Positions 8,579-26,764 of a stretch of DNA of 64,000 bases are shown here, piece by piece. This stretch comes from Acidimicrobiia bacterium (lineage in GTDB: Bacteria; Actinomycetota; Acidimicrobiia; Spongiisociales; UBA5794): the NCBI GenBank assembly GCA_036396535.1, contig DASWKR010000057.1, positions 62,001 through 126,000 on the forward strand. The letters are read 5' to 3'. How positions within the stretch are numbered: the stretch's first letter is position 1; each line of letters starts with the position of its first letter. The notes under the pieces were generated by a model. That model worked only from the letters and a program-made list of their open reading frames with translations, made no database searches and had not been told where the DNA came from. Made by a program: the position numbers and the translations under genes.

Positions 8579-9379
8579 TCAGCCCGCCAGAAAAGGGACG
8601 AGGGTCCCGACGAGGGCGTCGGGCTGCTCGATCTGCGGGCAATGACCGCACTCGGGGATCACAACGAGGCGAGAGCCGGCGATGGCCGCTGCCAGGCCGG
8701 TCGCCATGAACGCCGGCGTCGTCTGATCGAGCTCGCCTGCGATCACGAGCGTCGGGACGGTGACACCGGCAACATCGCCCGACAGGTCCAATGCGGCGAG
8801 CGCCTTGCAGGCTGCGGCGAAGGCACCGGGGTCCATCGCGGCGAGCACCGCACGGCAGCGGGCGGCGAGCGCAGGACGCCCGTCGAGATATCCCGGAGGG
8901 AAGATCCGTTCGACCGCCACGTCGAGGACTGCTGCCATGCCTCCTTCGGTGACACGAAGGGCCATGGCTGTGAACGCCCCCCTGCGGTCGGCGGGAAAGG
9001 CAAGGCCCGTGTTGCACGCGATCATGCTCTCGAGCCGACCGCCGTGGCGGGCAGCCGTCATCGCGGCGACGAACGAGCCGAAGCCATTGCCGAGTATCGC
9101 CGTGTTCCGCCCGAGATCGAGGGCGTCGATGGCGGTCGCCACCCTGTCCGCATAGTCGGTGATCGTCGGCTCGCCGGGAAGCGCCGTGGATCCTCCGAAT
9201 CCTGGAAGGCCGAGCCGGAAGACGCGTCTGTGCTGCGCCAGCTGCGGTACGACAGCGGAGAAGGCGGCCCCGTCCGTGAGCAGTGAATGGAGGAGCACGA
9301 GGGGGGGCCCTGCGCCTTCGACCTGGACGGCGACGGTACCGCCGTCCGCCGCCACGCTCGTCGGACCGACCTCGGTCAC
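8579..9379 (-). CDS. Alpha/beta hydrolase fold protein lacking the nucleophilic serine
   Basis: A 266-residue protein of the lactonase/esterase-like alpha/beta hydrolase family, last gene of the molybdenum-hydroxylase operon. The GTG at 9379 overlaps the stop of the GNAT gene (GTGA). The oxyanion strand PLVLLHSLLTDGAAF is near residue 28, and the acid and histidine are present in AGELDQTTP (about 215) and PECGHCPQIEQP (about 240). The nucleophile elbow, expected as G-x-S-x-G, reads LGNGFGS: the serine is a glycine. The fold therefore seems intact but classic serine hydrolysis is unlikely; the protein might bind a ligand, or use another mechanism. Confidence 0.85.
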   Translation of the reverse strand: MTEVGPTSVAADGGTVAVQVEGAGPPLVLLHSLLTDGAAFSAVVPQLAQHRRVFRLGLPGFGGSTALPGEPTITDYADRVATAIDALDLGRNTAILGNGFGSFVAAMTAARHGGRLESMIACNTGLAFPADRRGAFTAMALRVTEGGMAAVLDVAVERIFPPGYLDGRPALAARCRAVLAAMDPGAFAAACKALAALDLSGDVAGVTVPTLVIAGELDQTTPAFMATGLAAAIAGSRLVVIPECGHCPQIEQPDALVGTLVPFLAG

Positions 9380-10047
9380 GGCATGCGCTCGCGGCGTTCC
9401 GAGACCGCCTCGGCCCACGTCTCCGTCATCCCGACGCGCTGCATCTCGACGTCGCCGGCAGCCGTTGCCCGGAGGAGCTCGTTGAGACTCGAGTCGCCGA
9501 ACGCCGAGGCGTCGAACGGCAGCGGGACGTCCACCCGGATCGTCGCCGAGTTGCTGTCGGGCGTGATGACGGCGTCTGACAACCTGTCGACGATCCCGAC
9601 GTTGTCGGAGAGGACGTACGCTCGGAAGCTGCGGATCCCGTTGGCCACCGCCGACTCGGCGAGCAGCCGAACGAGGATGGCCCCGATCCCGCGGCCCTGG
9701 TACCCGTCTATCACGACGGCAGCAGGCTCGGCGGTCGTCGGGTCGCCCGGCAGGCGAACGTATCGGGCGACGCCGACACCCTGATGCCCCGGATCGCCGA
9801 CGTCGTGGGCAACCCAAGCGAAGTGGTCGTGGTAGTCGACCTCCGTGAGATAGCGGAGCTCTCGCTCCGTGAGGCGCTCCTTGGTCGCGAAGAACCGCAG
9901 ATACCGCGACTCCGGCGAGAGCAGGTCGAACCCGGCAAGCATGTCGTCCTTGTCGCCGGGGACGATCGGCCTGACCTCGATCGTCCCGCCGTCGCCGAGG
10001 CTCACCCTCGCCGTGCGAGCACGGATGAACTCCGAGTCGACGTCCAT
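9376..10047 (-). CDS. GNAT family N-acetyltransferase
   Basis: A 223-residue acetyltransferase. The acetyl-CoA pyrophosphate-binding motif appears as DGYQGRGIGAILV near residue 123, preceded by the beta-strand EPAAVVI. The N-terminus contains IEVRPIVPGDKDDMLAGFD and SPESRYLRFF, as in the acetyltransferase domains of actinobacterial Pat-like protein lysine acetyltransferases; no cyclic-nucleotide domain is present. It begins 27 bases after the YgfK-like gene and overlaps the hydrolase gene, so it sits in the same operon. The substrate is unknown; it could be an enzyme of the operon or a small amine. Confidence 0.85.
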   Translation of the reverse strand: MDVDSEFIRARTARVSLGDGGTIEVRPIVPGDKDDMLAGFDLLSPESRYLRFFATKERLTERELRYLTEVDYHDHFAWVAHDVGDPGHQGVGVARYVRLPGDPTTAEPAAVVIDGYQGRGIGAILVRLLAESAVANGIRSFRAYVLSDNVGIVDRLSDAVITPDSNSATIRVDVPLPFDASAFGDSSLNELLRATAAGDVEMQRVGMTETWAEAVSERRERMP

Positions 10048-10074: not shown

Positions 10075-11886
10075 TCACCCGCCGGAGGCGGTCGAGAGGT
10101 GCGACGGCGGGATGGGGAATCCCTCGTCGGAGTTGAGGATGGCGGCGAGTCGGGCGCCGTCCTCGCCCGCGCCGTGCTCGTTCGGGAGCACCATGTACCC
10201 GCCGTCCGCCCGTGCCGCGACGAGGTAGGCCTGCTCGTCCGCTTCGAGCGCGAACCGCTCCGGGGTGGTGAAGATGCGCGGCTTGACATGGGCCGGATCG
10301 CCGTCTTCCGGACAGAACGTCATGCAGTTGCCGCACTCGTTGCACGCCTCGACGAGGACGAAGTACTGCTGCCTGCCGTCGATCCCCATGCCATCGGGGG
10401 TGGGCAAGCGGAAGAAGGCATCGTTGGGACACACCGTGACGCAGAAGTTGCAGGCGACGCACCCCCACATCTCGAGCGTGTGGTCGACCCGGCGCGGCAG
10501 CTTGGCGGTCCCTTCCCGCGTGTAGTCCCCGTTCAGCAACGGATCGTGGAGCGCGGCGACGTATGCGGCGAGGGCGCCGCCGTGTCCGGCGGCGCGCCCC
10601 GCCCCCGTCGAATGCGTCCGCCACTCGCTCAGCGACGCGCAGCCGGCGCCCTCCATCTCGGCCTCGAGCGCCTTGAGCATGGGTTTGAGCCTTCCGTAGC
10701 CCCCGGGCTTCAGCAGGTCGGAGCACACCGTGATGGGTTCGAGGCCGAGCCCGGCAGCTTGTGCGAAGTTCTCCCTCGTGATCCCTGCCGAGAAGCTGAC
10801 CTGGATGCTGCCCTCTTGGCCGTCGACCCTGAGCCGACCCGGCAGGGCCCGGTCGAGCTCACCGAGCAATGTCGTCGTCACCACGTGGAGTGGAGCGCCC
10901 GACAGGTACATCGTCTCGTCCGGCATGAACGACCTGTGGTTCTCCACGACGAGCGTGTTCGTGAGCTTGATCCCGAAGTGCCTGCCGTTGGCGGCCGCGA
11001 ACTCGTCGAGCTCGTCGATCAGCTCGATGCCCCGACCGAGCTGCAGATCGTTGTCGAAGTCGGCCTGGCGCAGCCGCACGTCGTGGTACCCGAGCTCGTC
11101 GTTGACGATGCGGCGCACCGGGTCGAAGCCGAGGAGGGTCGGGTTCAGCTTGACGATGACGTCGAAGCCGTGGCGCGTCATGAGGTGCTTGGTGATCCCC
11201 TCGATCTCGTCCGGTGGACAGCCGTGGAACGTCGACAGCGTGACCGTGTCCGAGACCCGGCTTCGATATGGATGGTCGCGCCACGATTCGAACGGTGCCG
11301 GTATCTGCGACCTGAGCCGGTCGATCACACCCGAGGCATCGAGCATCGACTCCAAGTAGTGGGCGACGGTCGGCGACGAGATGCCGGCGAGGTCGTATCC
11401 GACCGAGATGTCGAACACGTGCGACCCCGGATCGTCCCCGATGTGTGGGGTGAGCTCGTCCCAGCCGGCCAGGATGTCGAGCATCATCCAAGCCTTGACG
11501 TACTCCTCGATCGACTCGTCGATCTTCAGCTCCTGGCTCCACTCGATGTTGTAGCCGACGGTCTCCATGTCTATGCACGGCCGGCCGATCTCGAGCTCGT
11601 CGAGCACCTGGACCGTCTTCAGCTCGATGAGCCGCGCCCCGCCGAGCCACGCCAGCACGACGTTCTGCGCCAACTGGCTGTGGGGACCGGCCGCCGGGCC
11701 GATCGGGGTGGCGGCGGGGCGGCCCATGAAGCTCATCGTGAGGTCTGGGCCGTCGGAGGCGTCGTAGAGCCTGGCGATCGGCAGATCGAAGATGCGGCGG
11801 CGGCTCTCCCACTCGTGAGCCACGCGGGAGAGGAGCACGTCGAGGGGGAACGGGGTGAGCGGTGGTATCTGCCTCGTCACCTTCAC
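10075..11886 (-). CDS. YgfK-like protein: N-terminal barrel joined directly to a 2x[4Fe-4S] ferredoxin domain
   Basis: A 603-residue protein. GTG 11886 overlaps the stop of the amidohydrolase gene (GTGA). Residues 1 to about 420 match the N-terminal domain of YgfK (TPIGPAAGPHSQLAQN, LIELKTVQVLD, TLSTFHGCPPDEIEGI, VKLNPTLLG, TDLLKPGGYGRLK), a dihydroorotate-dehydrogenase-like barrel. The C-terminus has two cysteine clusters, CVACNFCVTVCP (near 475) and CNECGNCMTFCP (near 510). E. coli YgfK, about 1030 residues, carries a GltD-like FAD/NADPH module between these parts; here it is absent. In other genomes ygfK neighbours ssnA and molybdenum hydroxylase genes, as it does here. A role in moving electrons to or from the hydroxylase is inferred. 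Confidence 0.85.
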   Translation of the reverse strand: MKVTRQIPPLTPFPLDVLLSRVAHEWESRRRIFDLPIARLYDASDGPDLTMSFMGRPAATPIGPAAGPHSQLAQNVVLAWLGGARLIELKTVQVLDELEIGRPCIDMETVGYNIEWSQELKIDESIEEYVKAWMMLDILAGWDELTPHIGDDPGSHVFDISVGYDLAGISSPTVAHYLESMLDASGVIDRLRSQIPAPFESWRDHPYRSRVSDTVTLSTFHGCPPDEIEGITKHLMTRHGFDVIVKLNPTLLGFDPVRRIVNDELGYHDVRLRQADFDNDLQLGRGIELIDELDEFAAANGRHFGIKLTNTLVVENHRSFMPDETMYLSGAPLHVVTTTLLGELDRALPGRLRVDGQEGSIQVSFSAGITRENFAQAAGLGLEPITVCSDLLKPGGYGRLKPMLKALEAEMEGAGCASLSEWRTHSTGAGRAAGHGGALAAYVAALHDPLLNGDYTREGTAKLPRRVDHTLEMWGCVACNFCVTVCPNDAFFRLPTPDGMGIDGRQQYFVLVEACNECGNCMTFCPEDGDPAHVKPRIFTTPERFALEADEQAYLVAARADGGYMVLPNEHGAGEDGARLAAILNSDEGFPIPPSHLSTASGG

Positions 11887-12908
11887 AGCCTCGCGTGGAG
11901 CCGGGAGGCCTGCTCGGCGGCCCTGGCCCTGATCTCGGTGGGATCTACCCGCGTGGACCTGCCTTCCGACAGGACCGTGTCGCCGTCGACGACGACATCG
12001 ACGGGCCTGATGCCCGGCGTGAATGCCACATGCCACGGGTCCATCGGCTCGTACGACCAGGTGACGACGTCGCCGCGAGCTTCCGGCACGAGCTGCCACC
12101 CGGCCTCCAGCCAGCCCCACGCCGTCTCGGGCGTCGCCGTCACGTCGGCCGAGCGGTGCATCACATACGCCAGGCGGAACGACTCCACGACGTTGCCGCC
12201 GATTCCGTCCGTTCCGAGCGCAACCGGGTTGGTGAAGCGGGCGGGCTCGGCGTACCCGACTGCATTGTTCAGGTTCGACATCGGATTGTGGAGGATGGTG
12301 CCCTTCAGGCGGTGGTCGGTGGGCAGGTGGACGCCATGGGCGAGCAGCCAGCCGTCGCCGGTGAGCTTCTCGAGTCGTTCTGCGGCTTCGGCGTCCTCGG
12401 GGCCTTCGGCGACGTGGATGTGGACCCCGACGCCGTGGTCGGAGGCGAGCGCCGCAGCGTCTTCGAGGGTGGCGTCGCTGCAGGTGAAGGCGGCGTGCAC
12501 CCCGACGAGGCCTCGTCCGCCCGCATCGAGGAAGCGCCTGTTCTCCTCGAGGCCCCGCTTGGCGCCGTCCGTTCCATGCCGGTCGGTGACTCCGTAGGCG
12601 GCGACGAGGCGCACGCCAACCTCGGCACAGGCGGCGGCGATGACGTCGAGGCTTCCCTCGATGGCGCTCGGCGACTCGTGGTGGTCGACGATCGCGGTCG
12701 TCCCGGACTCGAGCGCCTCGAGAGCCCCGAGCATCGCCGACCAGCGGATCATCTCGAGGTCGAGCGCCGCGTCGAGGCGCCACCACACCTGCTCGAGGAT
12801 GCCGCGAAAGGAGGTCGGTGTCACTGGTGGCGCCGGCATGCCCCTGGCGAGCGCCGAGTAGAGGTGGTGATGGGCGCAGACGAGCCCCGGGGTCTTGGCC
12901 CCGCTCAT
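11883..12908 (-). CDS. SsnA-like amidohydrolase, short N-terminus
   Basis: A 341-residue metal-dependent amidohydrolase of the TrzN/SsnA group. Start ATG 12908 overlaps the upstream hydroxylase stop (ATGA). The sequence opens almost directly at the first metal motif (PGLVCAHHHLYSALARGM), followed by WWRLDAALD, VDHHESPSAI, VHIHVAE, LLAHG, HNPMSNLNN and LGTDGIGG, so the metal ligands are in place. Compared with E. coli SsnA (about 440 residues) the first 55-60 residues, which form half of the small beta domain, are missing although its C-terminal strands (VDVVVDGDTVLSEG) remain. Upstream sequence is the hydroxylase gene, so no longer start is available. A hydrolytic deaminase role in purine breakdown is likely. 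Confidence 0.87.
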   Translation of the reverse strand: MSGAKTPGLVCAHHHLYSALARGMPAPPVTPTSFRGILEQVWWRLDAALDLEMIRWSAMLGALEALESGTTAIVDHHESPSAIEGSLDVIAAACAEVGVRLVAAYGVTDRHGTDGAKRGLEENRRFLDAGGRGLVGVHAAFTCSDATLEDAAALASDHGVGVHIHVAEGPEDAEAAERLEKLTGDGWLLAHGVHLPTDHRLKGTILHNPMSNLNNAVGYAEPARFTNPVALGTDGIGGNVVESFRLAYVMHRSADVTATPETAWGWLEAGWQLVPEARGDVVTWSYEPMDPWHVAFTPGIRPVDVVVDGDTVLSEGRSTRVDPTEIRARAAEQASRLHARL

Positions 12909-15490
12909 ACGCCGAGTGGCTGGTGAACCTGCATCGGCAGCTTCGTCCGCCACACGCCGTCGACGTCGTGGAACGCCGCGGCGACGGCGCCCGCAGTCGG
13001 CACGAGCCCGATCTCACCGACGCCCTTGATCCCGTACGGGGCGTTCGGCTGTGGCGCTTCGACGAGGATCACCTCCACGTCCGGCATGTCTTTCGGGCGG
13101 ATGATCCCGAGCGACCGCAAGGTCATGTTGGTCGGACGCCCCAGCTCGTCGGCCGGGAACTCCTCGGAGAGGGCGTACCCCAGTCCCATGTGAACCGAGC
13201 CCTCGATCTGCCCGGAGCACAAGAGCGGGTTTACCGCCCGGCCGACGTCGTGTGCCGCCACCACCTTCTCGATGGCCCCCGTCGCTTTGTCTGCGATGAC
13301 GACCTGGGCGGCATACCCGAACGTCGAGTGGATGATCGGGTGCTCGACGGCGTCCTCGAGCTTGTTGGTCCAGTCGACGCGGTACTCGCCCGGATAGTCG
13401 ACGCCCGGCGCCATCCCGCTCTCCTTGGCGAGGCGGCACGCGTCGGCGACTGCGCCCGCCCCCATGAGGGTGCCCCGCGAGCCGGTCGTCTGACCGGCGC
13501 CGAGCTCCCTGGTCGTGTCGACGACCACCCGGACCTTGGCGGGATCGACACCCAACTCCTCGGCTGCAACCTGCTGAGCGACGGTGTGGATCCCCTGGCC
13601 CATCTCGGTCCAGCAGTGCCGCACCTCGACACCGCCGTCGGCGTCGAAGCGGACGACCGCTCTGGCGATCTCCTTGAAGCCGTTGCCGAGCCCCGAGTTC
13701 TTGAGCCCGAGCCCGAGCCCGACGGCCTTGCCGTCCGCCTTCGCCTGGTCGTAGACGGCCCGAACCGCCTCGAGGCACTGCTTGGCACCGATCGACCCCT
13801 CGTCCATGATCTGGCCCGGTCCCCACACCGCCCCGGGCTCCACCGCGTTGCGCCACCGCATCTCCCACCCGCTGATGCCGACCATCTCGGAGAGGCGGTC
13901 GATGATCCCCTCGGTGGCGAACTGGGCTTGGTTGGCGCCGAAGCCCCGAAAGGCGCCGCACACCGGGTTGTTCGTGCGCGCTGCCACCGACTCGACGTCG
14001 ATGTTCGGGAAGGCGTACGGGCCGCTCGCATGGCCGGCGGCGCGCTCGAGCACCTTCATTCCAACCGAGGCGTACGGACCGGAGTCGCCGAGCATGCGCG
14101 CCTTGAGGGCGGTCAGCCTGCCTCGGGCGTCGCAGCCTGCCCACATCTCGACCCGGATCGGGTGCCTCTTCGGGTGGAGGAGCATCGACTGCTCCCTGGT
14201 GAGGGTGCACTTGACCGGCCGGCCGATCAGGAAGGCGGCGAGCGCGGTTTGCGCCTGGTTGGACATGTCCTCCTTGCCGCCGAAGGCGCCTCCGTTCGAG
14301 ACGAGCTCGACGACCACCTTCTCCTGCTCGACGCCGAGCACAGATGCGATCTGGTCACGGTCGTCCCAAACTCCCTGGCCGCCGCTGTACACCAGCAAGG
14401 TCCCATCCTGGCGAGGCACGGCGAGGGTCGACTCCGGCTCGAGGAAGGCATGCTCGATGCGCGGGGTCTCGAAAACCTCGTGAACGGTGTGGGCCGACCC
14501 GGCGAGAGCCGCCGCCACGTCTCCCCTTTGGTACCTCGAGACGGAGAGCGTGTTGCCTCGAAGCCCCCACACGGCGTCCTCCTCGGATGCGATCGCCTTC
14601 GCAGGGTCCGTGAACGGTGCGAGGACCGTGTACTCGACGGAGACGGCGCCGGCGGCGAGCCGTGCCGTGACGACGTCCTCGGCCACGACGAGGGCAAGCA
14701 CGTCCCCGAGGTACGAGGTTCGCCCTCCCTCGGGGATGAACACCGGCCAATCCGTGTGGATGATCCCGACCTTCAGCTCGCCGGGGACATCGGCCGCCGT
14801 GAGAACCCGCACGACGCCGGGCATCGCCTCGGCCGCCGAGGTGTCGATGCGCACGACGTCGGCCCTGGCGTGGTCGGCGAGCCGCACGGCGGCGTGCAAC
14901 ATCCCGGCAGGCCGCATATCGTCGACGTAGTCGCGGTCGCCGAGGGCCAGTTCGTGGGCCTCGTACTTCACCCCCGACTTGCCGATGCCGGAGGCCCGCT
15001 CGGGGGCGGGGATGTGGCCCTTGGCGAGCATCTCGATGGCGTCGAAGATCTTGGTGTAACCGGTGCAGCGGCACAGGTGCCCTCCGAGCCGTCCGGCCGC
15101 CGTCTCCCTGGTGAGATCGCTGCCCTTGTCGTCGAGGAGCGCCTTCGTCCTCACGAGGATCCCCGGTGTGCAGAATCCGCATTGCAAGGCGCCGGTCACC
15201 GCGAACGCTGTTGCGAGGCGCTCCCGTTCCGACTCGTCGAAGCCTTCGAGGGTCACGACCTCGGACCCGGCGACCTTGTCGAGTTGTGTTTGGCACGAGA
15301 TACGAGCCTTGCCGTCCACGAGGACCGCGCAGCAACCACACTGGCCCATCGGGGCGCAGCCGTCCTTCGGTGAGGTGATACCGAGCTCCTCGCGCAGGGC
15401 GGCGAGCAGGTGGGGGTGCCGATTGGAGACCGTGGCCTCGGTCCCGTTGATGATGAAGGTCGTCGTGTCCTCGCTGATCAGCGTCATCAC
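12905..15490 (-). CDS. Fused 2Fe-2S / molybdopterin hydroxylase, selenium-dependent xanthine dehydrogenase type
   Basis: An 861-residue molybdenum hydroxylase. Residues 10-160 hold two [2Fe-2S] sites (CAPMGQCGCC, then CGFCTPG and HLCRCTGYTKI). From about 170 the molybdopterin domain follows, with GGAFGGKEDMS, GAFRGFGANQ, EMGQGIHTV and near the C-terminus GIKGVGEIGLVPTAGA, whose glutamate is the family's catalytic base. There is no FAD domain. The FeS-Mo fusion of about 850 residues, next to SsnA and YgfK homologues, matches the selenium-dependent xanthine dehydrogenase family (TIGR03311 by description). The protein is encoded first in an operon of five overlapping or closely spaced genes. Whether selenium is used cannot be read from the sequence. 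Confidence 0.9.
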   Translation of the reverse strand: MMTLISEDTTTFIINGTEATVSNRHPHLLAALREELGITSPKDGCAPMGQCGCCAVLVDGKARISCQTQLDKVAGSEVVTLEGFDESERERLATAFAVTGALQCGFCTPGILVRTKALLDDKGSDLTRETAAGRLGGHLCRCTGYTKIFDAIEMLAKGHIPAPERASGIGKSGVKYEAHELALGDRDYVDDMRPAGMLHAAVRLADHARADVVRIDTSAAEAMPGVVRVLTAADVPGELKVGIIHTDWPVFIPEGGRTSYLGDVLALVVAEDVVTARLAAGAVSVEYTVLAPFTDPAKAIASEEDAVWGLRGNTLSVSRYQRGDVAAALAGSAHTVHEVFETPRIEHAFLEPESTLAVPRQDGTLLVYSGGQGVWDDRDQIASVLGVEQEKVVVELVSNGGAFGGKEDMSNQAQTALAAFLIGRPVKCTLTREQSMLLHPKRHPIRVEMWAGCDARGRLTALKARMLGDSGPYASVGMKVLERAAGHASGPYAFPNIDVESVAARTNNPVCGAFRGFGANQAQFATEGIIDRLSEMVGISGWEMRWRNAVEPGAVWGPGQIMDEGSIGAKQCLEAVRAVYDQAKADGKAVGLGLGLKNSGLGNGFKEIARAVVRFDADGGVEVRHCWTEMGQGIHTVAQQVAAEELGVDPAKVRVVVDTTRELGAGQTTGSRGTLMGAGAVADACRLAKESGMAPGVDYPGEYRVDWTNKLEDAVEHPIIHSTFGYAAQVVIADKATGAIEKVVAAHDVGRAVNPLLCSGQIEGSVHMGLGYALSEEFPADELGRPTNMTLRSLGIIRPKDMPDVEVILVEAPQPNAPYGIKGVGEIGLVPTAGAVAAAFHDVDGVWRTKLPMQVHQPLGV

Positions 15491-16652: not shown

Positions 16653-17450
16653 TTGAGAACCCGCCGTCACAACCGCATGCACCTCCGTGGCCTCCTGCTC
16701 CTGGTCGTCGTGGCAACCGCTTGCGATGCGACCGCCGCCACCACGAGCAGCCTGCTGGAGACCACGGGGACGGTGCCGCCGACGGTCGCTCCAGCGGCTC
16801 TGCGGGCTACCTGCGGCGCCGTGAGCCTGGGCGAAGGAGTCAGGCTTCCCGAAGAGCCGCTCGACGATGACGGCATCGCGGCGCTGGCGGCGACCCCCGA
16901 CCAGGTCGGCGGCGAGGCGAGCTTCTTCCTGTTGTACGAATGGTTCACAGCGGCGCGCTCGGCAGACTCACTCGTTCTGTTCGGCAAGCCGACCGACGAC
17001 GCCATCGACCCCACGTATGCATACGCCGAGTTCGAGCTCGTCGACGGGACGTGGACCGCCCGCGGCTGGGGGCAGTGCTCGACCCAGGTCGAGGCGCCGG
17101 GATTCGGGAACGCCGCGTGGGTGCTCGACGCCGCCATCGCCCCGCATCCGGATGCCACCCAGCTGGCCATCGAGATCAACGAGCGTAACTGCGCCAGCGG
17201 CCAGCCCCCTGTGAGCCGCGACGTCGTTCCGGTCGTCGTGGCCGACGCCGACCGGGTGACGATCGTCGTCCTCGTCGAGCCCGTCGCGGGCTCCGCCGAC
17301 TGTCAGAGCAATCCTTGGCATCCCGTCGTCGTCGAGTTGGGAGAGGCGCTCGGAGATCGGGTGCTCTACGACGGGCACGCCATCCCGCCGCTGCTCCGTC
17401 CGTGGCCGCCGACCGAGTCGAGCATCGGGTCGATCGGCTCCGAGGAATGA
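16653..17450 (+). CDS. Hypothetical lipoprotein
   Basis: A 265-residue secreted protein with a lipoprotein signal: positively charged start, hydrophobic LLLLVVVATAC, lipidation cysteine at residue 24. The TTG at 16653 is preferred because GGAGG lies 10 bases upstream, while the internal ATG at 16677 has none. A Thr/Ser/Pro linker follows, then a soluble domain with a few cysteines (ATCGAV, GQCST, RNCASG, SADCQSN) that could form disulfides. I do not recognise the domain. It precedes the nucleoside-binding lipoprotein gene by about 140 bases. Confidence 0.75.
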   Translation: MRTRRHNRMHLRGLLLLVVVATACDATAATTSSLLETTGTVPPTVAPAALRATCGAVSLGEGVRLPEEPLDDDGIAALAATPDQVGGEASFFLLYEWFTAARSADSLVLFGKPTDDAIDPTYAYAEFELVDGTWTARGWGQCSTQVEAPGFGNAAWVLDAAIAPHPDATQLAIEINERNCASGQPPVSRDVVPVVVADADRVTIVVLVEPVAGSADCQSNPWHPVVVELGEALGDRVLYDGHAIPPLLRPWPPTESSIGSIGSEE

Positions 17451-17587
17451 GCCTTCGGACCGCGAAATCGTCGTCTGGCGGGAAGTTCGCGGCCGCTTGC
17501 GACGCGGTATGGTCTCCGCGCGAAGGCTTCCTCGCACGCTGGAAGCGAGATGCGGGCGAGGGTTCGTCAAATGGAGGAATCAACGAC

Positions 17588-18925
17588 ATGAGACTCGAGC
17601 GTTGGCGCAACTGGATCGCGGCTCTCTCCGTGCTCGCCCTCGTCGGTGCGGCGTGCGGAGGAGACGGCGAGGCGACGACCACGGCCGGCGACGCCGCCAC
17701 GACCACGACAACGGGCGACACGACGACGACCACCGCCGGCGAGGCGACCACGACGACCGCGGGCGAGGAAACCACAACGACGGGCGAGGCGACGACGACC
17801 ATCCCCGAGGACTTCAAGATCGGCATGATCCTCGTCGGCCCACAGAACGACACCGGGTGGAGCCAGGCGCACTACGAGGCCGGGCTCTACGTGATGGAGC
17901 AACTCGGCCTCCCCGCCGAGAACATGATCGTGCTCGACAAGGTCAACACGGCCGACCGGCCGGAGACGAGCATCCCGGCGGTGGTCGACGACATGCTGTC
18001 GCAGGGAGCCCAGCTCATCTTCGCCACGTCAGACGACATGAAGGACGGGATCCTCGAAGCGGCCGCGGCGAACCCCGACGTCCCGATGATCTGGTCGTCC
18101 GGCGACAACGCCTGGACCGACGGGGAGGATTACCGGGCCGACCTGTCCAATCTCGGCAACGTGATGGGACAGATGGAGTTCGGCAAGATGATCGCCGGGT
18201 GCTCGGCTGCTCTCACCACCGAGACCGGGTCGATCGCCTACCTCGGACCACTCATCAACGATGAGACCCGCCGGCTCGTGAACTCGGCGTACCTGGGCGC
18301 CAGGTACTGCTGGGAGTTCTTCCGGGGCAACGACCCGGTCGACCTCGCCTTCCAGGTGAAGTGGATCGGGTTCTGGTTCAACATCCCGGGCTTCACCCTC
18401 GACCCGACCCAGGTCACGAACGAGTTCCTGGCGGACGGTGCCGACGTCGTGATCTCGGGCATCGACACCACAGAAGCCCTCGTCAGGGCGGGCCAGGCAG
18501 TCGACTCCGGCGAGTCGGTGTGGGCCGTCCCGTATGACTACGGGCTGGCATGCGACACGGCCCCGAGCGCCTGTCTCGGCGTCCCGTATTTCAACTGGGG
18601 ACCGGCGTACGTCGAGGTCGTCCAGTCGGTGATCGACGGCGACTTCGCCGCCGAGTTCAGCTGGGTCGGGCCCGACTGGGATGACATCAACGACATCGAC
18701 TCGAGCGCGGTCGGCTGGCTCGACGGACCGGCGCTGTCGGACGACGCGGCCGGCACCCTGGCAGACTTCATCGATGGCCTCGGCAGCGGGGTCATCGACC
18801 TCTGGCAGGGACCGCTCACTTACCAGGACGGCACCGAGTACGTGGCGGAGGGGGCGCGGGCCACCGACGTCCAGATCTGGTACACGAAGCAGCTCCTCGA
18901 AGGTATCGAGGGGGCGAGCTCCTGA
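17588..18925 (+). CDS. BMP family nucleoside-binding lipoprotein of an ABC importer
   Basis: A 445-residue substrate-binding protein. ATG 17588 is preceded by GGAGGAA. The signal ends in a lipobox (LVGAAC) near residue 22, followed by a 45-residue Thr-rich linker with repeated TTTT and AGE units. The mature domain is of the BmpA/PnrA basic-membrane-protein family (KIGMILVGPQNDTGWSQAHYEAG at its start, IPAVVDDMLSQGAQLIFATSD, GMEFGKMIAG-like segment). PnrA-type proteins bind purine nucleosides. The double ATPase and two permeases follow directly, and molybdenum hydroxylase operons flank the transporter, which supports uptake of purine nucleosides or bases. Confidence 0.9.
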   Translation: MRLERWRNWIAALSVLALVGAACGGDGEATTTAGDAATTTTTGDTTTTTAGEATTTTAGEETTTTGEATTTIPEDFKIGMILVGPQNDTGWSQAHYEAGLYVMEQLGLPAENMIVLDKVNTADRPETSIPAVVDDMLSQGAQLIFATSDDMKDGILEAAAANPDVPMIWSSGDNAWTDGEDYRADLSNLGNVMGQMEFGKMIAGCSAALTTETGSIAYLGPLINDETRRLVNSAYLGARYCWEFFRGNDPVDLAFQVKWIGFWFNIPGFTLDPTQVTNEFLADGADVVISGIDTTEALVRAGQAVDSGESVWAVPYDYGLACDTAPSACLGVPYFNWGPAYVEVVQSVIDGDFAAEFSWVGPDWDDINDIDSSAVGWLDGPALSDDAAGTLADFIDGLGSGVIDLWQGPLTYQDGTEYVAEGARATDVQIWYTKQLLEGIEGASS

Positions 18926-18953
18926 CCATCTGACCGCAGGGCGATCCACCATC

Positions 18954-18977
18954 GGGGGAGGCCGACCGGGCTCCCCC
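18954..18977 (+). terminator. Intercistronic hairpin after the binding-protein gene
   Basis: GGGGGAG and CTCCCCC pair in a 7-bp stem around 10 bases. It has no T-run and lies between the abundant-component gene and the ATPase gene, a usual place for an attenuator or mRNA-stabilising hairpin that gives more binding protein than membrane components. Confidence 0.5.
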
Positions 18978-19032
18978 ACGGCGCTGGCGTCATGGCACGG
19001 GCGAGACCCGCCTGGCTACGCTCGCCACCGCC

Positions 19033-20502
19033 ATGGCGCTCGAGTTGCGGGACATCCACAAGCACTACGGGCCCGTGCGCGCCAACGACGGCGTCACACT
19101 CACGTTCCAACCGGGGGAGCTGCATGGGCTGCTCGGCGAGAACGGCGCAGGCAAGTCGACCCTCATGAAAGTGATCTCGGGGTTCATCGAAGCCGACTCG
19201 GGTGAGGTCGCCATCGACGGGACACCGATCGACTTGCGCTCCCCGGCGGATGCCATCACGGCAGGCATCGGAATGCTCCACCAGGATCCGCTCGTCTTCT
19301 TGCCCTTCACCGTGCTCGACAACTTCCTGGCAGGAAGCGGAGGAGGTGTCCGGCTCGACCGAAAGGAAGGCGCCGCCCGCCTCGAGGAAGCGGCCCGGCG
19401 CTACGGGTTCACCTTCGACCCCCACACGCTTGCCAGGAACCTCACGGTCGGGGAGCGTCAGCAGCTCGAGATCGCCCGGTTGCTCTGGCTCGGCGCCAGG
19501 GTGCTGATCCTCGACGAGCCGACGACCGGAATCTCGGCCTCGCAGCGCGAGAAGCTCTTCGAAGTGCTGAGGAGGCTGGCGGAGGACGGGATGATCGTCA
19601 TCTTCGTCTCGCACAAACTCGAGGAGATCGAGCAACTCTGCGATCGGGTGACCGTGATGAGGCACGGAAGAGTGGTGGGGGACGCAGTGATGCCCGTCCC
19701 CGCCCACCAGCTCGTCCAGCTGATGTTCGGCGACATCACGACGACGCCCGGCCGGCTGCCCGCCGCCCTCGGCGACATAGCGGTCAGGCTCGCCGGCGTC
19801 ACGGTGACCGAGCGTCTCGTCACCGTCTCCGAGTTGGACCTCGAGGTGCGGGAGGCAGAGGTGCTCGGCCTCGCCGGCCTCGAGGGCTCGGGGCAGCGCA
19901 CCCTCCTGCAGGCCTGCGCCGGGCTGATCCCGCCGCGGCGCGGGTCACTGACTATCGGGGGCCGGGCGATGGCCGGCTCGGGCTATCGGGAGTTCAGGGC
20001 GGCGGGTGTCCACTACCTCCCGGCCGGGCGTCTCGAGGAAGGCCTGGTGAGAGGGATGAGCCTCGCCGAGCATTTCGAGCTGACGAGTGACAGGACCTCG
20101 TTCTTCGTGGACTGGGGCACCGCCGCCGAGAGGGCGGACGAGGGGATCCGGGCGTACTCGATCAAGGGCGGAGCGGCCTCCACGGCCGAGTCGCTCTCCG
20201 GAGGCAACCAGCAGAGGCTCCTGCTGGCGATGATGCCCGGCGCCACCCGGCTGCTCCTGTTGGAGCATCCGACGAGGGGCCTCGACATCGAGTCGGCCGA
20301 GTGGGTGTGGAACCGCCTCCTGGAACGGAGGGCTTCCGGCACCTCCATCATCTTCGCCTCCGCCGACCTCGATGAGCTCCTGCGCTACAGCGACCGGGTG
20401 GCCGTCTTCTTCGCCGGCAGGGTCATCAGCGTCGTCGAGACACCGTCGACGACGCCGGACGAGCTGGGACACCTCATCGGCGGCAGGTCAGGGCCGGCGT
20501 GA
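19033..20502 (+). CDS. ABC importer double ATPase, nucleoside type
   Basis: A 489-residue fused ATPase with two nucleotide-binding domains, as in NupA/YufO and RbsA. Domain 1 is complete: GENGAGKST, signature LTVGERQQLEIARLL, LILDEPTTGIS, and VSHKLEE. Domain 2 (from about 250) has LEGSGQRTLL at the Walker A position, without the lysine, then LSGGNQQRLLLAMM and LLLEHPTRGLD, where the usual aspartate-glutamate is glutamate-histidine. The second site is therefore probably inactive, which is common in this family. The stop overlaps the first permease start (GTGA). Confidence 0.92.
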   Translation: MALELRDIHKHYGPVRANDGVTLTFQPGELHGLLGENGAGKSTLMKVISGFIEADSGEVAIDGTPIDLRSPADAITAGIGMLHQDPLVFLPFTVLDNFLAGSGGGVRLDRKEGAARLEEAARRYGFTFDPHTLARNLTVGERQQLEIARLLWLGARVLILDEPTTGISASQREKLFEVLRRLAEDGMIVIFVSHKLEEIEQLCDRVTVMRHGRVVGDAVMPVPAHQLVQLMFGDITTTPGRLPAALGDIAVRLAGVTVTERLVTVSELDLEVREAEVLGLAGLEGSGQRTLLQACAGLIPPRRGSLTIGGRAMAGSGYREFRAAGVHYLPAGRLEEGLVRGMSLAEHFELTSDRTSFFVDWGTAAERADEGIRAYSIKGGAASTAESLSGGNQQRLLLAMMPGATRLLLLEHPTRGLDIESAEWVWNRLLERRASGTSIIFASADLDELLRYSDRVAVFFAGRVISVVETPSTTPDELGHLIGGRSGPA

Positions 20503-21536
20503 GCCGCTTGAGCCGCATGAAGGCGCCGCTCATCTCGATTGCGCTGGCACTGGCGGCCACGGTCGGACTCTTGCTCGTGGTCGACGCTCCGCCGATCGAG
20601 GCGCTCGGCCAGTTGTGGGACGGATCGCTCGGACGCCTCGAGAAGATCCCGGACACCCTCATCACCTGGTCGCCTCTCGTCCTCGCCTCTGCCGGGCTCA
20701 TCGTGACGTTCCAGGCAGGGATGTGGAACATAGGCGTCGAGGGACAGATCATCGCCGGTGCGATCGGCGCAGCCCTGGTGGTTCGCGAGCTGACCATGCC
20801 GGCCGTCGTCGTGATCCCGATCGCCTTCGTCGTCGGCACGGCATTCGGCTCGGCTTGGGCCGTCGTCCCGGGATGGCTGCGAACCCGCTTCGGCGTGCAC
20901 GAGATCTTCTCCGGCGTGGCGCTGACCTTCCTGGCCGGGTCGGTGGCGGTGTACTTGATCATCGGGCCGTGGTCGCGAGCGGGCATCGCCTCGACGAGCG
21001 GCACAGATCCGTTCCCCACCGAGTACTGGTTGCCGACGGTCGGCGACTACTCGTGGGTCGCCATCGCTCTCGCACTCATCTCCGTCGCCGTGGTCTTCGT
21101 GCTCATGCGAGGCACGCGCTACGGGCTCCGGCTCAAGGCCGTTGGCCGGAACGAGTTCAGTGCCTTCCTCATGGGCGTGCGCACGAAGCGGTACATGCTC
21201 TCCTCGTTCGCGATCTGCGGGGCGCTCGCCGGCGTCGCCGGGACGGTCCAGGCTCTCGGTTTCCACCACAAGCTCGTGCCTGCTGTCTCGGGAGGCTACG
21301 GCTTCCTGGCGATACTCGTCGTCCTCCTCGCCGGGTTCCGGGCGCTTTGGACCCCCGCCATCGCCTTGTTCTTCGCGGCGGTCTTGGTGGGGAGCACGCA
21401 GCTCAGCTTGCGCTTGAACATCGACTCGGACCTCGCAGGTGTGATCCAGGGTGTGCTCGTCCTGGCCATCCTCGTCGTCGGCGGCTGGCAAGCCCGCCAC
21501 GCCCGCCATACGGCGCGTCAGGGAGAGGAGGCCTGA
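20499..21536 (+). CDS. ABC nucleoside importer permease 1 (NupP/YufP-like)
   Basis: A 345-residue integral membrane protein of the BPD_transp_2 family, with about ten hydrophobic helices. Family features include GMWNIGVEGQIIAGAI near residue 75, GVHEIFSGVALTFLAG near 130, and the cytoplasmic coupling segment GTRYGLRLKAVGRNEFSAF near 207. GTG start overlaps the ATPase stop. It pairs with the following permease to make a heterodimeric channel for nucleosides. Confidence 0.92.
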   Translation: MSRLSRMKAPLISIALALAATVGLLLVVDAPPIEALGQLWDGSLGRLEKIPDTLITWSPLVLASAGLIVTFQAGMWNIGVEGQIIAGAIGAALVVRELTMPAVVVIPIAFVVGTAFGSAWAVVPGWLRTRFGVHEIFSGVALTFLAGSVAVYLIIGPWSRAGIASTSGTDPFPTEYWLPTVGDYSWVAIALALISVAVVFVLMRGTRYGLRLKAVGRNEFSAFLMGVRTKRYMLSSFAICGALAGVAGTVQALGFHHKLVPAVSGGYGFLAILVVLLAGFRALWTPAIALFFAAVLVGSTQLSLRLNIDSDLAGVIQGVLVLAILVVGGWQARHARHTARQGEEA

Positions 21537-21537
21537 C

Positions 21538-22476
21538 GTGGAAGTCCTCGCCGGCATCGTCGCGGCAGCATCTCCGCTCGTGTACGCCACGATCGGCGAG
21601 ACGATCAGCGAGAAGGCGGGCGTCATCAACCTGTCGCTCGACGGCACGATCCTGCTGTCTGCGATGACCGCCTTCGCAGCGGCATCGGTGAGCGGGAGCG
21701 TCGTCGTCGGCTTCGCGGCGGCCGTCGCCGTCTCGATGACAGCCTCTGCAATCGTCGCCTTCTCGAGCATCCGGCTGAGGCTCAACCAGATCGCCGTCGG
21801 CTTCGTCCTGTTCATCCTGGGGCGACAGCTCGCCAACTTCCTCGGGAACTCGTACGTCGGCGTGTCGGGACCGAAGGTCCCGGCATGGGACGTGCCTCTC
21901 TTGTCCGACGTCCCTTGGATCGGCGAGATCCTGTTCACGCACAACGTGTCCGTGTACGGGAGCTACATCGTCGTCGGACTGGCGTACTGGTTCATCTACC
22001 GGACCCGACCAGGACTCGAGCTGCAGGGCGTCGGCGAGCGCCCCGAGGCGGCGTTCGCCAGGGGCATCGCGGTGAACCGCCTGCGGTACCTGTACACACT
22101 CGTCGGCGGAGGACTCGTCGGAGTTGCGGGCGCAGCCGTGTCACTCGATCAGATCGCCGGCTGGCGCGAGAACCTGACGACGAACCTCGGCTGGATCGCT
22201 CTCGCCTTCGTGATCTTCGGCGGCTGGCACCCGCTCAGGGTGGCGGCGGCCTGCTATCTGTACCGAGGCCTGCTCTTCGTCGCCGGACAGTTCCAGGAGA
22301 CATTCGGCGACTTCCTCCAGGTCCTCACGCAGCTCCCGTTCCTACTCATGATCCTGATGATCACGCTCATCAACACGGAGTGGTTCAAGCGCCTCGGCGA
22401 CCGCTACCCACGATGGCGCAACTTCCTGGCGAGCAGCGCTCCTGCGGGAAGTGGTTCTGTGTTCGTCAGGGAGTGA
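21538..22476 (+). CDS. ABC nucleoside importer permease 2 (NupQ/YufQ-like)
   Basis: A 312-residue permease starting at GTG 21538, which follows the previous stop by one base. The early segment GETISEKAGVINLSLDG corresponds to the conserved loop of this family (usually GEraGvinigleG), and ELQGVGERPEAAFARGIAV near residue 162 is the coupling segment. About eight to nine hydrophobic helices are visible. Its 3' end overlaps the 3' end of the convergent second hydroxylase gene by 11 bases, so the two operons meet tail-to-tail without room for a terminator. Confidence 0.92.
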   Translation: MEVLAGIVAAASPLVYATIGETISEKAGVINLSLDGTILLSAMTAFAAASVSGSVVVGFAAAVAVSMTASAIVAFSSIRLRLNQIAVGFVLFILGRQLANFLGNSYVGVSGPKVPAWDVPLLSDVPWIGEILFTHNVSVYGSYIVVGLAYWFIYRTRPGLELQGVGERPEAAFARGIAVNRLRYLYTLVGGGLVGVAGAAVSLDQIAGWRENLTTNLGWIALAFVIFGGWHPLRVAAACYLYRGLLFVAGQFQETFGDFLQVLTQLPFLLMILMITLINTEWFKRLGDRYPRWRNFLASSAPAGSGSVFVRE

Positions 22477-24702
22477 CGCCGTTCGCCCGGAGGGTGGCGA
22501 CGACTCGGCCCGGCGTCAGCGGGAACTCATCGAACCACACACCTGTCGCGTCATGCATCGCGGCGGCCACCGCAGCGGCATACGGGATGAATGGCATCTC
22601 CGCCATGCCGCGCACGCCCCATGGCCCGCGCGGGTCCGGCACTTCGACGATCACGCTCGTGACCCGCTCAGGAATATCGCCGATGCCTGGGATGAGATAC
22701 GTGCTGAGCGTCGGGTTGAGGATGCGCCCCTCGCCCAGCTGGAGGTGCTCGGTGACCGCGTACCCGTGCGCTTGGACGACTCCCCCCTCGATCTGGCCCT
22801 CGATCAGCGTCGGGTTGACGGCGCGGCCGACATCGGTGGCGCAGACGACCCACGACACGACGACGTGGCCCGTCTCGATGTCGACCGAGACGTCGGCGGT
22901 CTCAGCAACGTAGCCGTAAGCGAAGTTCGGCTCCGAGGGCCCGCCGTGTTGGTCGAGCGGCTCCGTCGGGGGCGGCACGAAACGGAACTGTCCGGTCGCC
23001 GGCCTGGCGCCGTCGTTCCACGCCTTCATCGCCTCCTCGGCGGCCCCGAGGATGGCGTTGCCTGCCATCCAGGTCATCCGTGACGCCGACACCGAGCCCG
23101 AATCGGTCGTTCTCGCCGTGTCGGACCAGACGGCCGCCACGTCCTCGACCGGGAGTCCCAGTGCCTCGGCAGCCATCTGGGTGAGGGCCGTGTGCGTTCC
23201 CTGGCCGACCTCGGCGGCAGAGTGGTAGAGGACGGCACCACTCGGTTCCTCGTCGCCGTGCACCTCGATCTCGGCGGTGCAGCTCTCGGGGAACCCGAAC
23301 GAGAATCCGATGTTCTTGTAGGCGCAGGCGAACCCGCGGCCCGACCGAACGGCCCCTCGCTTCGCCGGCAGCGACTGGAAGGCGCTGAATGGTGCCGTGA
23401 TTGCATCGTTGCCGCCCTCGGGCCATCCCGCCGCCTGAGCACACGCCTCGATGACCTGGGTGAGGCTGACGCCCTCCGGCATGGCGGTTCCGGCGATGCC
23501 GATGCTTCCCTCCTGGTACCCGTTGCGCAGGCGCAGCGCCACCGCGTCCATGCCGAGCGCCGCGGCGAGCTTGGTCATCTGGGCCTCTGCGACGAAGGCT
23601 CCCTGGGGAGCCCCGAATCCTCTGAACGCCCCGCCGGGGACGGTGTTCGTGTAGACGCCGTAGGTGTCGATGCGAGCGTTGGGGATCTCGTACGGGCCGG
23701 CCACCGTCAAGTGCAGGTTGCCTGCGACCTTGTTCGTCGTGTAGTTGTATGCCCCGGCGTCGAGGTAGGCGTCCGCTTCGACGGCGACGATGTCACCTTG
23801 CGTCGTCGCTCCCCAGCGGGCATGGATCACGCCACGATGACGCTTGTGGTGCCCGACGATGGACTCCTCGCGCGACCACACACAGCGCAGCGGCCTCCGG
23901 ATGCCCCGCTCGTGGAGCCGCATGGCCGCCAGCGCCATGACGATCTGGAGCGACATGTCCTCGCGTCCCCCGAAGGCGCCGCCGATCGCCGGGTACACGA
24001 CGCGCACTCGATCCTCGGCCAGGTCGAGTGCGTGGGCGATCTGGGCGCGATCCTCGTGGGTCCACTGCCCGGCGATCTCGACGGTGACGCGACCCTGATC
24101 GTCGATGTAGCTGACGGCGGCCTCGGGTTGCAGGTAGGCGTGTTCCTGATGGGGGACGTGGTACGTGCCATCGATGATGACGTCGGCGGCCGCCCACCCT
24201 GCCTCCATGTCGCCCTTGCGGGCCTTGTAGTGGACGTAGGCGTTCGTGCCCTTCTCGGGGTGGACGAGGATCTCGTCGGTGAGCGCCCGGTCGATGTCCG
24301 CCACGAGTGGCAGCGGCTCCCATTCGACGTGGATCGCCGCCGCTCCGAGAGCGGCAGCCCGCACCGTCTCCGCCACGACGACCGCGATCTGGTCCGCCTC
24401 CCACCTGCTCACGTCCGACGGGACCTCGCTACGGCCGGTGGCGTCGACGCCGACGAGCACGGGCTGGTCGAACACCGTGAGCCCGTATTCGTTGACCGGC
24501 ACGTCGGCCGCAGTGAACACCGCCACGACCCCGGCGACGCCGAGTGCGCTCGTGACGTCCATCCCGGTCATCCTGGCGTGCGGCTGATCTGAGAAGACGA
24601 CCTTGACCGCAAGGGGGTCGCCGGGAGTGAGATCCGCCGGGTAGAGGGCATCCCCCGTCACCTTCCCGATCGCATCGACCCGCCTGCGGGAGGTGCCGAT
24701 GC

Positions 24703-24706
<4 letters not shown>
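22466..24706 (-). CDS. Molybdopterin-binding subunit of a xanthine dehydrogenase family hydroxylase
   Basis: A 746-residue molybdenum hydroxylase large subunit. GTG 24706 overlaps the stop of the FAD/FeS subunit gene. Visible landmarks are GKVTGDALYPADL at the start, EHAYLQPEAAV, GGAFGGREDMS (about 260), GAFRGFGAPQGAF (about 395), EVGQGTHTALTQ (about 560) and, near the C-terminus, GVRGMAEMPFIPYAAA, where the glutamate fits the catalytic base although the usual GxGE reads GMAE. It forms a conventional three-domain enzyme with the next upstream gene. Substrates in the family are purines or other N-heterocycles; neighbours favour a purine. Confidence 0.9.
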
Positions 24707-26172
<1,466 letters not shown>

Positions 26173-26173
26173 C

Positions 26174-26764
26174 TCAGTCACCCCTCCGTCCGTTGTAGAT
26201 GACGCCCCCGGCCGACGCGTAGTCGGCGAGCAACTCGGCGCCCTCGGACCGGCGAACATCGCGGACGACCTCGATGCCGCGCGACTCGAGCGCCGCCACC
26301 CACGAGACCGGCTTGGCTCCCTCGTCGAAGCCGACGGCGGTGGCGTCCTCGTCACGCGCTCCGCACACGAGCCTCCTCACGCCGGACCAGGGCACCGCGC
26401 CGAAGCACATGGCACACGGCTCCGTCGTCGTGACGAGCTCCATCGCCGGGAGCCCGGGAGCACCGAGGTCGTACGACCCGACGGCCCGGCAGGCGATGGC
26501 GATGGCGACGATCTCGGCGTGAGCTATCGAGACGGCGCTCGGCACGACGACGTTGAGGCCGGCTGCGACGAGTGCTCCGCTCGCCGACTCGAACACCGCG
26601 GCTGCGAACGGCCCTCCCGTGGCCTCCTCGACGTTGCGACGTGCGAGCGCCAGCACGAGATCCATGCGGACCAGGTCGTCCGGCCACTCCACGGATGCCG
26701 ACCCGACGGCCTCGCCCATCCACTCGGGGAGGTCGATACTCACTCTGAGGAGCTTGGAATCCAT
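26174..26764 (-). CDS. Guanine-deaminase-like nucleobase deaminase (CDA superfamily)
   Basis: A 196-residue zinc deaminase of the cytidine/deoxycytidylate deaminase superfamily. The zinc site is HAEIVAIAIAC (His and catalytic Glu near 82-84) with TEPCAMCFGAV (two Cys near 118-121). The segment after it, CGARDEDATAVGFDEGAK, resembles the region of GuaD-type guanine deaminases rather than of tRNA adenosine deaminases. As the first gene of the second hydroxylase operon it could convert guanine to xanthine for oxidation. Other amino-purines or pterins are possible substrates. Confidence 0.8.
   Translation of the reverse strand: MDSKLLRVSIDLPEWMGEAVGSASVEWPDDLVRMDLVLALARRNVEEATGGPFAAAVFESASGALVAAGLNVVVPSAVSIAHAEIVAIAIACRAVGSYDLGAPGLPAMELVTTTEPCAMCFGAVPWSGVRRLVCGARDEDATAVGFDEGAKPVSWVAALESRGIEVVRDVRRSEGAELLADYASAGGVIYNGRRGD

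Follow-up and report, generated by a model that had tools for sequence, protein, structure and literature searches.

A purine-type gene run ending in a serine-less hydrolase-fold gene

The window, by which we mean the whole 64,000-nucleotide stretch of Acidimicrobiia DNA that was analysed, carries on its minus strand a run of genes in the order selenium-dependent xanthine dehydrogenase (Se-XDH), SsnA-like amidohydrolase, YgfK-like protein, GNAT acetyltransferase and, in last place, a gene for an alpha/beta-hydrolase-fold protein that lacks the nucleophile serine (Table 1). We use the label ABH-G both for this gene and for its family, which is defined by a GNGxG elbow. Within the run, the genes overlap by up to 49 bases or are separated by gaps of less than 30, and ABH-G begins with a GTG at position 9379, where it overlaps the GNAT gene and its TGA by 4 bases, and ends with a stop codon at 8581-8579. 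Divergent transporter genes, which going by their families would be of the purine/nucleoside type, and a second molybdenum hydroxylase lie further along the window.

Table 1 Features of the window, with positions counted from its first letter
Feature	Position	Strand	Remarks
ABH-G, Ser-less alpha/beta-hydrolase-fold protein	8579..9379	-	266 aa, GTG start
His246 codon, catalytic histidine position, invariant	8642..8644	-	motif ECGHCPQ
Asp218 codon, canonical catalytic acid position, invariant	8726..8728	-	motif AGELDQTTP
Arg158 codon in the cap, invariant	8906..8908	-	opposite an Arg of PcaD (2xua) in the alignment
Gly99 codon GGC, at the elbow site usual for the nucleophile serine	9083..9085	-	
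GNAT acetyltransferase directly upstream of ABH-G	9376..10047	-	
YgfK-like, N-terminal and Fe-S parts	10075..11883	-	602 codons; TIGR03315 414 bits, cut-off 835; start not fixed
SsnA-like amidohydrolase	11883..12953	-	NF005540 250 bits, cut-off 444
Selenium-dependent xanthine dehydrogenase family protein	12905..15490	-	TIGR03311 832.8 bits, cut-off 830.45
Transporter genes	17315..22476	+	Bmp/PnrA-like 17315-18925; ABC ATPase 19033-20502; BPD_transp_2 permease 21451-22476
Second molybdenum hydroxylase	22466..26355	-	Mo subunit 22466-24886; FAD and 2Fe-2S parts 24703-26355

Judged by protein family, the purine setting of this run is well founded. In E. coli the counterparts of the Se-XDH, SsnA and YgfK genes act in urate reduction and purine-ring opening, and SsnA clusters have been reported in Actinomycetota too (excerpts of PMC12507026). 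The first-pass annotation of this DNA had spoken of a purine operon, and the families bear this out, with Se-XDH just over its cut-off, the SsnA-like and YgfK-like proteins below theirs, and the transporter genes alongside. A YgeX-type lyase for the whole reductive urate pathway was not found over cut-off in the window's genome, while another of its contigs encodes a D-hydantoinase that passes the cut-off.

Several neighbouring genes have features of their own. The XDH gene overlaps the start of the SsnA-like gene with its 3′ end. Residue 21 of the SsnA-like protein aligns with profile position 58, and the start or N-terminus may be unusual. The best stretch of the YgfK-like frame covers profile positions 1 to 398 out of 1012 and is accompanied by an Fe-S part, so that this protein may use an electron donor other than NAD(P)H, for which UacX offers a comparison case (PMC12507026, in part). 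The genome also encodes, on another contig (G000:C91:21982-23154, L148), a monooxygenase resembling 2,6-dihydroxypyridine hydroxylase that shares 58% identity with the monooxygenase found near ABH-G in L053.

The elbow of ABH-G reads I-L-G-N-G-F-G-S (G97-N98-G99-F100-G101), with glycine at the place where alpha/beta-hydrolase enzymes usually have Ser, Cys or Asp as the nucleophile, and a covalent acyl-enzyme at residue 99 is therefore impossible. The initial reading of an LGNGFGS elbow, with glycine for serine and the aspartate and histidine kept, proved correct (Gly99, Asp218 and His246). Membership of the superfamily is clear from the Abhydrolase_1 profile (80.7 bits, cut-off 25.8), and among the matches listed only general hydrolase-fold families and Ndr exceeded their Pfam cut-offs. 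The nearest NCBIfam models are of the PcaD type, all with scores under their cut-offs, and none of the NCBIfam matches listed for the window protein and three relatives was over the model cut-off.

Glycine at the nucleophile position is a fixed trait of the family

A single-protein search of 60 related genomes yielded six homologues with 38-50% identity, all six with a GNGxG elbow; the weaker homologues read in the same genomes (at most 35% identity) had a Ser elbow, except for an Asp in L016. Scanning genome contigs with a seven-row alignment gave 78 loci, of which 75 carried GNGxG, a proportion that is not independent evidence because one of the two scan patterns includes GNG. The elbow-free pattern was carried by 13 rows including the window, ten with Gly and three with Ser. 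The latter (L113, L114 and L116) fall among Ser-type groups in the tree and were removed from the family.

From the Gly members we built a whole-length profile of 72 members, A2, leaving out L053, L080, L106 and L113-L116. Against 296 genomes of the window's class, A2 gave 36 listed places, the elbows of which were all read. Every one of the 13 places at 276 bits or more (276-347 bits; ten are rows of A2 itself and three are new) had GNGxG, whereas all 23 places at 168 bits or less had GxSxG, and nothing scored between. In a set of 289 genomes around a Bradyrhizobium, where the places listed all had E values of 1e-48 or better, three places with at least 315 bits were GNGxG, one of them an A2 row and two new, and one place at 170 bits had a Ser elbow, GLSIG. 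In six genomes reached through the loci, the best match scored 331-373 bits and the next at most 172 bits in five; for the sixth (L115) the only match listed was a partial one of 137 bits. This last genome is a cyanobacterial bin, Kaiparowitsia implicata, in which the GNGxG gene (L115:9985-10641) seems broken or partial.

A pattern-free tblastn search of plasmids with L109 returned, among the matches listed, five records at 51-70% identity, from Sinorhizobium sp. B11 and four Methylobacterium, and all the others at 34% or less; a further 468 matches fall outside this listing. All five plasmid members have GNG[YF]G and keep Arg158, Asp218 and His246. Together with L119, L120, L125, L187 and L188 they make up ten members outside A2, every one with Gly. 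A single-protein query found no homologue in viral contigs. The first-pass annotation had left it to an alignment of homologues whether the glycine is conserved or all relatives carry serine; the score split in the window's class, the Bradyrhizobium set and the plasmids show conservation, and the high-scoring homologues are of the Gly type throughout. Glycine at the nucleophile position is thereby confirmed as a fixed family trait.

The family is patchy, being found in 13 of 296 sampled genomes of the window's class and in 3 of 289 around Bradyrhizobium, and five of the six genomes looked at have one clear ABH-G-type copy, a distribution that suits biochemical study. The five plasmid members are annotated as 'alpha/beta (fold) hydrolase', a label that may mislead because the textbook covalent serine mechanism is impossible for this family. 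We found no description of a GNGxG family among the open-licence literature matches listed.

Conservation and selection

For residue-level comparison, 74 rows chosen for GNG were aligned; L106, a partial row, and L115, whose frame is broken or partial, were dropped. This choice of rows in itself puts glycine at position 99 in all 74. Further invariant positions are Gly22, Gly24, Leu33, Leu34, Pro59, Gly60, Gly97, Asn98, Gly101, Phe103, Gly147, Ala155, Arg158, Phe187, Gly215, Asp218, Thr221, His246 and Pro248, where the invariance of the elbow residues is again partly by construction; Arg158, Asp218, Thr221 and His246 are found in 74 of 74 although the scan pattern covered the elbow only. No Ser or Cys is invariant.

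The Gly99 codon is GGC in 33 members, GGG in 19, GGT in 17 and GGA in five, and dN/dS was 0.05-0.28 in ten close pairs; the ABH-G family is under purifying selection. The clean GGC codon, taken at first sight to speak against random decay, was indeed found, and the use of four glycine codons and the dN/dS values agree with that reading. With Gly homologues in several classes, these four synonymous codons, purifying selection and an open reading frame, a single-strain mutation, a sequencing error or a decaying gene is ruled out for practical purposes.

Structure and relation to PcaD and RutD

AlphaFold2 run on A2 gave a model with a mean pLDDT of 96.5 and a pTM of 0.94. Its best PDB match is the 3-oxoadipate enol-lactonase PcaD (2xua), with a TM score of 0.92 and an rmsd of 1.5 over 264 columns; a second comparison with 2xua gave Z = 38.6 over 256 residues. 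The two proteins are alike across their whole length at about 31% identity, and the SL of the HSL motif, the catalytic Asp and His and an Arg of the cap match in the alignment. Going by the match to PcaD, the modelled His246, Asp218 and Arg158 would lie close to Gly99. The cap Arg of PcaD contacts the substrate carboxylate. The residue after it, Trp in 2xua, is replaced by Ile in the window protein and varies between Ile, Met and Leu across the family. PcaD differs further in its nucleophile, which is Ser where ABH-G has the Gly of GNGxG, and ABH-G reaches only 161.7 bits against the PcaD model TIGR02427 (cut-off 255.85). No protocatechuate operon was seen around ABH-G.

RutD, a putative aminoacrylate hydrolase (TIGR03611, 3v48), resembles ABH-G in having an elbow without Ser while keeping Asp and His. 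In E. coli its elbow reads GHALGA, with Ala (GxAxG) for the Ser, whereas the ABH-G elbow has Gly. RutD likewise comes from an operon for nucleobase catabolism (pyrimidine, Rut) and matches the ABH-G model with Z = 32.7; the score of ABH-G against TIGR03611 is 58.2 bits, far from the cut-off of 238.5.

Gene neighbourhoods of the relatives

For each cluster, the neighbouring genes were typed on one or a few of its members. In Rhizobiales, Liv-type ABC genes are followed by ABH-G and then XdhFAD-FeS-Mo, and L073, L074, L076 and L094 have the order CoxG-XdhFAD-FeS-Mo-ABH-G. L080 has an Amidohydro_1 gene, ABH-G, a Mo-hydroxylase and HIBADH, the amidohydrolase of this type (typed on L081) being allantoinase/dihydropyrimidinase-like. 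In Acidimicrobiia we found a DHPH-like monooxygenase, ABH-G and a PF04199-type cyclase; the monooxygenase of L053 has 2,6-dihydroxypyridine hydroxylase (2vou, E = 6e-72) as its best PDB match. The plasmid members are preceded by MFS-ALDH-GntR in Methylobacterium and by ALDH-GntR in Sinorhizobium sp. B11.

Within 7 kb, a Mo subunit was present at 23 of 75 family loci and 1 of 22 Ser-type control loci (p = 0.011), a DHPH-like monooxygenase at 13/75 and 0/22 (p = 0.036) and HIBADH at 11/75 and 0/22 (p = 0.065), with p-values that are uncorrected for seven tests and too optimistic because the family loci are related to each other. Many contigs are short, the neighbour queries were drawn mainly from family loci, and L116 was left out of the control as the same place as L159; the enrichments are suggestive. 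GFO/MocA, cyclase and amidohydrolase genes did not differ significantly between the 75 family and 22 Ser-type loci. Nor was ALDH enriched (20/75 against 6/22, p = 1), and an aldehyde passed from ABH-G to ALDH as its product is not supported.

The contexts are diverse. At 38 of the 75 loci neither a Mo-hydroxylase, a DHPH-like monooxygenase, a cyclic amidohydrolase nor PF04199 occurred within 7 kb, and the betaproteobacterial L063, L065, L084, L102, L106 and L112 have CbbQ-type AAA and GSDH genes as neighbours, joined in five of the six by an outer-membrane efflux gene, a setting that does not look like N-heterocycle catabolism.

A PF04199-type protein has been proposed to open trihydroxypyridine by hydrolysis (PMC6214936, in the text excerpted). 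Such a protein lies beside the ABH-G-type gene in L043, L051, L053 and L064, which weakens the case for trihydroxypyridine ring opening by ABH-G itself.

Proposed mechanism and alternatives

We consider it fairly probable that ABH-G is a functional enzyme family of PcaD-like origin by loss of the serine, in which a His-Asp general base acts on intermediates of N-heterocycle catabolism. The family would have arisen inside the PcaD-like alpha/beta hydrolases by a Ser-to-Gly change at the nucleophile, and the His246-Asp218 dyad would serve as the general base, with no covalent acyl-enzyme, by deprotonating either water or an acidic OH or NH of the substrate. Arg158 may hold an anionic group of the substrate, and the space freed at Gly99 could take up substrate or water. 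The substrate may be an unstable, ring-derived intermediate, of purine type in the window and probably of pyridine or hydantoin type in the relatives, and molybdenum hydroxylases and flavin monooxygenases would act either before or after this step. The general-base mechanism and the substrate class are what we infer from these data. A His-Asp general base is the simplest reading because the dyad and the Arg are invariant, yet no acyl-enzyme is possible at Gly99; activation of water by the dyad would also fit. Hydrolysis, C-C or C-N cleavage, tautomerisation and dioxygenation are all candidate reactions on sequence grounds. By analogy, RutD with its Ala and the S101A variant of HOD serve as precedents for a dyad working without Ser. 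More tentatively, and with considerable doubt, the family could be a cross-phylum, PcaD-derived group of nucleophile-free ring-opening or oxygenating enzymes for oxidised N-heterocycles, acting in the step that follows hydroxylation by a Mo-hydroxylase or of the dihydroxypyridine type.

A cofactor-free dioxygenase, named as an example in the first-pass annotation, would be a special case of the general base: the dyad would deprotonate a hydroxylated N-heterocycle that comes from the Mo-hydroxylase or the monooxygenase, and its anion would react with O2 to open the ring. The family is repeatedly found beside enzymes related to those that hydroxylate N-heterocycles, and the 2,4-dioxygenases HOD and QDO share the fold and a His-Asp dyad that works as general base with a dispensable Ser; in HOD, S101A alters only Km (excerpts of PMC3961685). 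We nevertheless regard this reaction as unlikely. HOD retains its Ser101, and Asp126, 25 residues further on, serves as the acid (PMC3961685, same excerpts). Judged by the offset alone, this site is Thr124, next to Asn123, in ABH-G. Across the 74 rows, position 123 is Asp in 45, Gly in 18 and Asn in 11 and position 124 is without Asp, so that this site has no invariant acid, whereas Asp218 at the canonical place is the same in all rows. The absence of HOD from the 60 matches listed of 356 PDB rows says nothing either way. In addition, the YgfK and SsnA families belong to a pathway described as reductive, in anaerobic bacteria (PMC12507026, as excerpted), and the four loci with a PF04199-type neighbour already have a protein of the type proposed as a hydrolytic ring-opener (PMC6214936, likewise).

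A catalytically dead sensor, carrier or assembly protein resembling NDRG would fit the missing nucleophile, and the Pfam Ndr model (PF03096) matches ABH-G with 28.3 bits over a cut-off of 23.3. NDRG elbows, too, read GxGxG. Abhydrolase_1 and the PcaD-type models outscore Ndr by far, however, and the gene order is typical of catabolic enzymes. NDRG3, described in excerpts of PMC7022630 as a non-enzymatic protein with the hydrolase fold, has all of its triad residues replaced, whereas ABH-G lacks the Ser alone and keeps Asp218 and His246 in 74 of 74 rows; a dead scaffold is disfavoured because loss of the dyad would be expected in one, and we rate this explanation as quite unlikely. The same invariance of the dyad and of Arg158 disfavours the binding-only role that the first-pass annotation had entertained. 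An ordinary covalent hydrolase with a relocated nucleophile is very improbable. Position 32 in the HSLL motif is Ser in 66 and Thr in eight of the 74 rows, and Thr221 is invariant, but 2xua has Ser at position 32 alongside a normal nucleophile, and Thr221 follows the catalytic Asp and occurs as well in the Ser-elbow relatives L147, L133, L134 and L136 (DxxTP). Ser102, which had been suggested from GFGS as an alternative, is no replacement nucleophile because position 102, after Gly101, is Gly in 40 rows, Ala in 31 and Ser in only three.

The family would mark an enzyme in catabolic clusters of the purine and pyridine type, among them a variant of the reductive urate operon, and would offer a test case for how the hydrolase fold can function without its nucleophile.

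Descent and apparent repeated loss of the serine

In a tree with 20 Ser-type neighbours, the 72 Gly rows fall on one side of a branch with an SH-aLRT of 99, and the same split holds with the five elbow columns masked; the tree was made by a quick method with no bootstrap and its root is not known. One change between Ser and Gly suffices on it, and we infer the direction to be Ser to Gly. A second tree was made from 26 of the 72 GNG rows, a group with a GLGxG elbow, a Ser-type tandem partner and RutD. In it the GNG rows again form one group, apart from the GLG rows and RutD, so that the nucleophile seems to have been lost more than once. RutD groups with the tandem partner and not with the GNG family, although its branch is long and its placement unsure, and the RutD and GNG losses accordingly look independent. 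The GLGxG clade and RutD suggest that nucleophile loss is a recurrent route in the PcaD/RutD group and not a one-off event.

The GLGxG group is itself a second, separate Ser-to-Gly clade of PcaD-like proteins, comprising L083:12411-13205 and L190-L196, with relatives of a betaproteobacterial genome as hosts. Gly is present in all seven rows with at least 41.9% identity and Ser in all 13 read below 40%; one row has the elbow GLGYG and one ALGLG. In L083 a distance of about 7 kb separates the GLGxG gene from a GNGxG gene. Seven of the 75 family loci (L048, L050, L055, L056, L091, L092 and L110; for example L110:10841-11638) have, close to the Gly-type gene and mostly adjoining it, a paralogue of the Ser type whose elbow, GRSMGGAIA, is fixed, and the two genes possibly form a functional pair.
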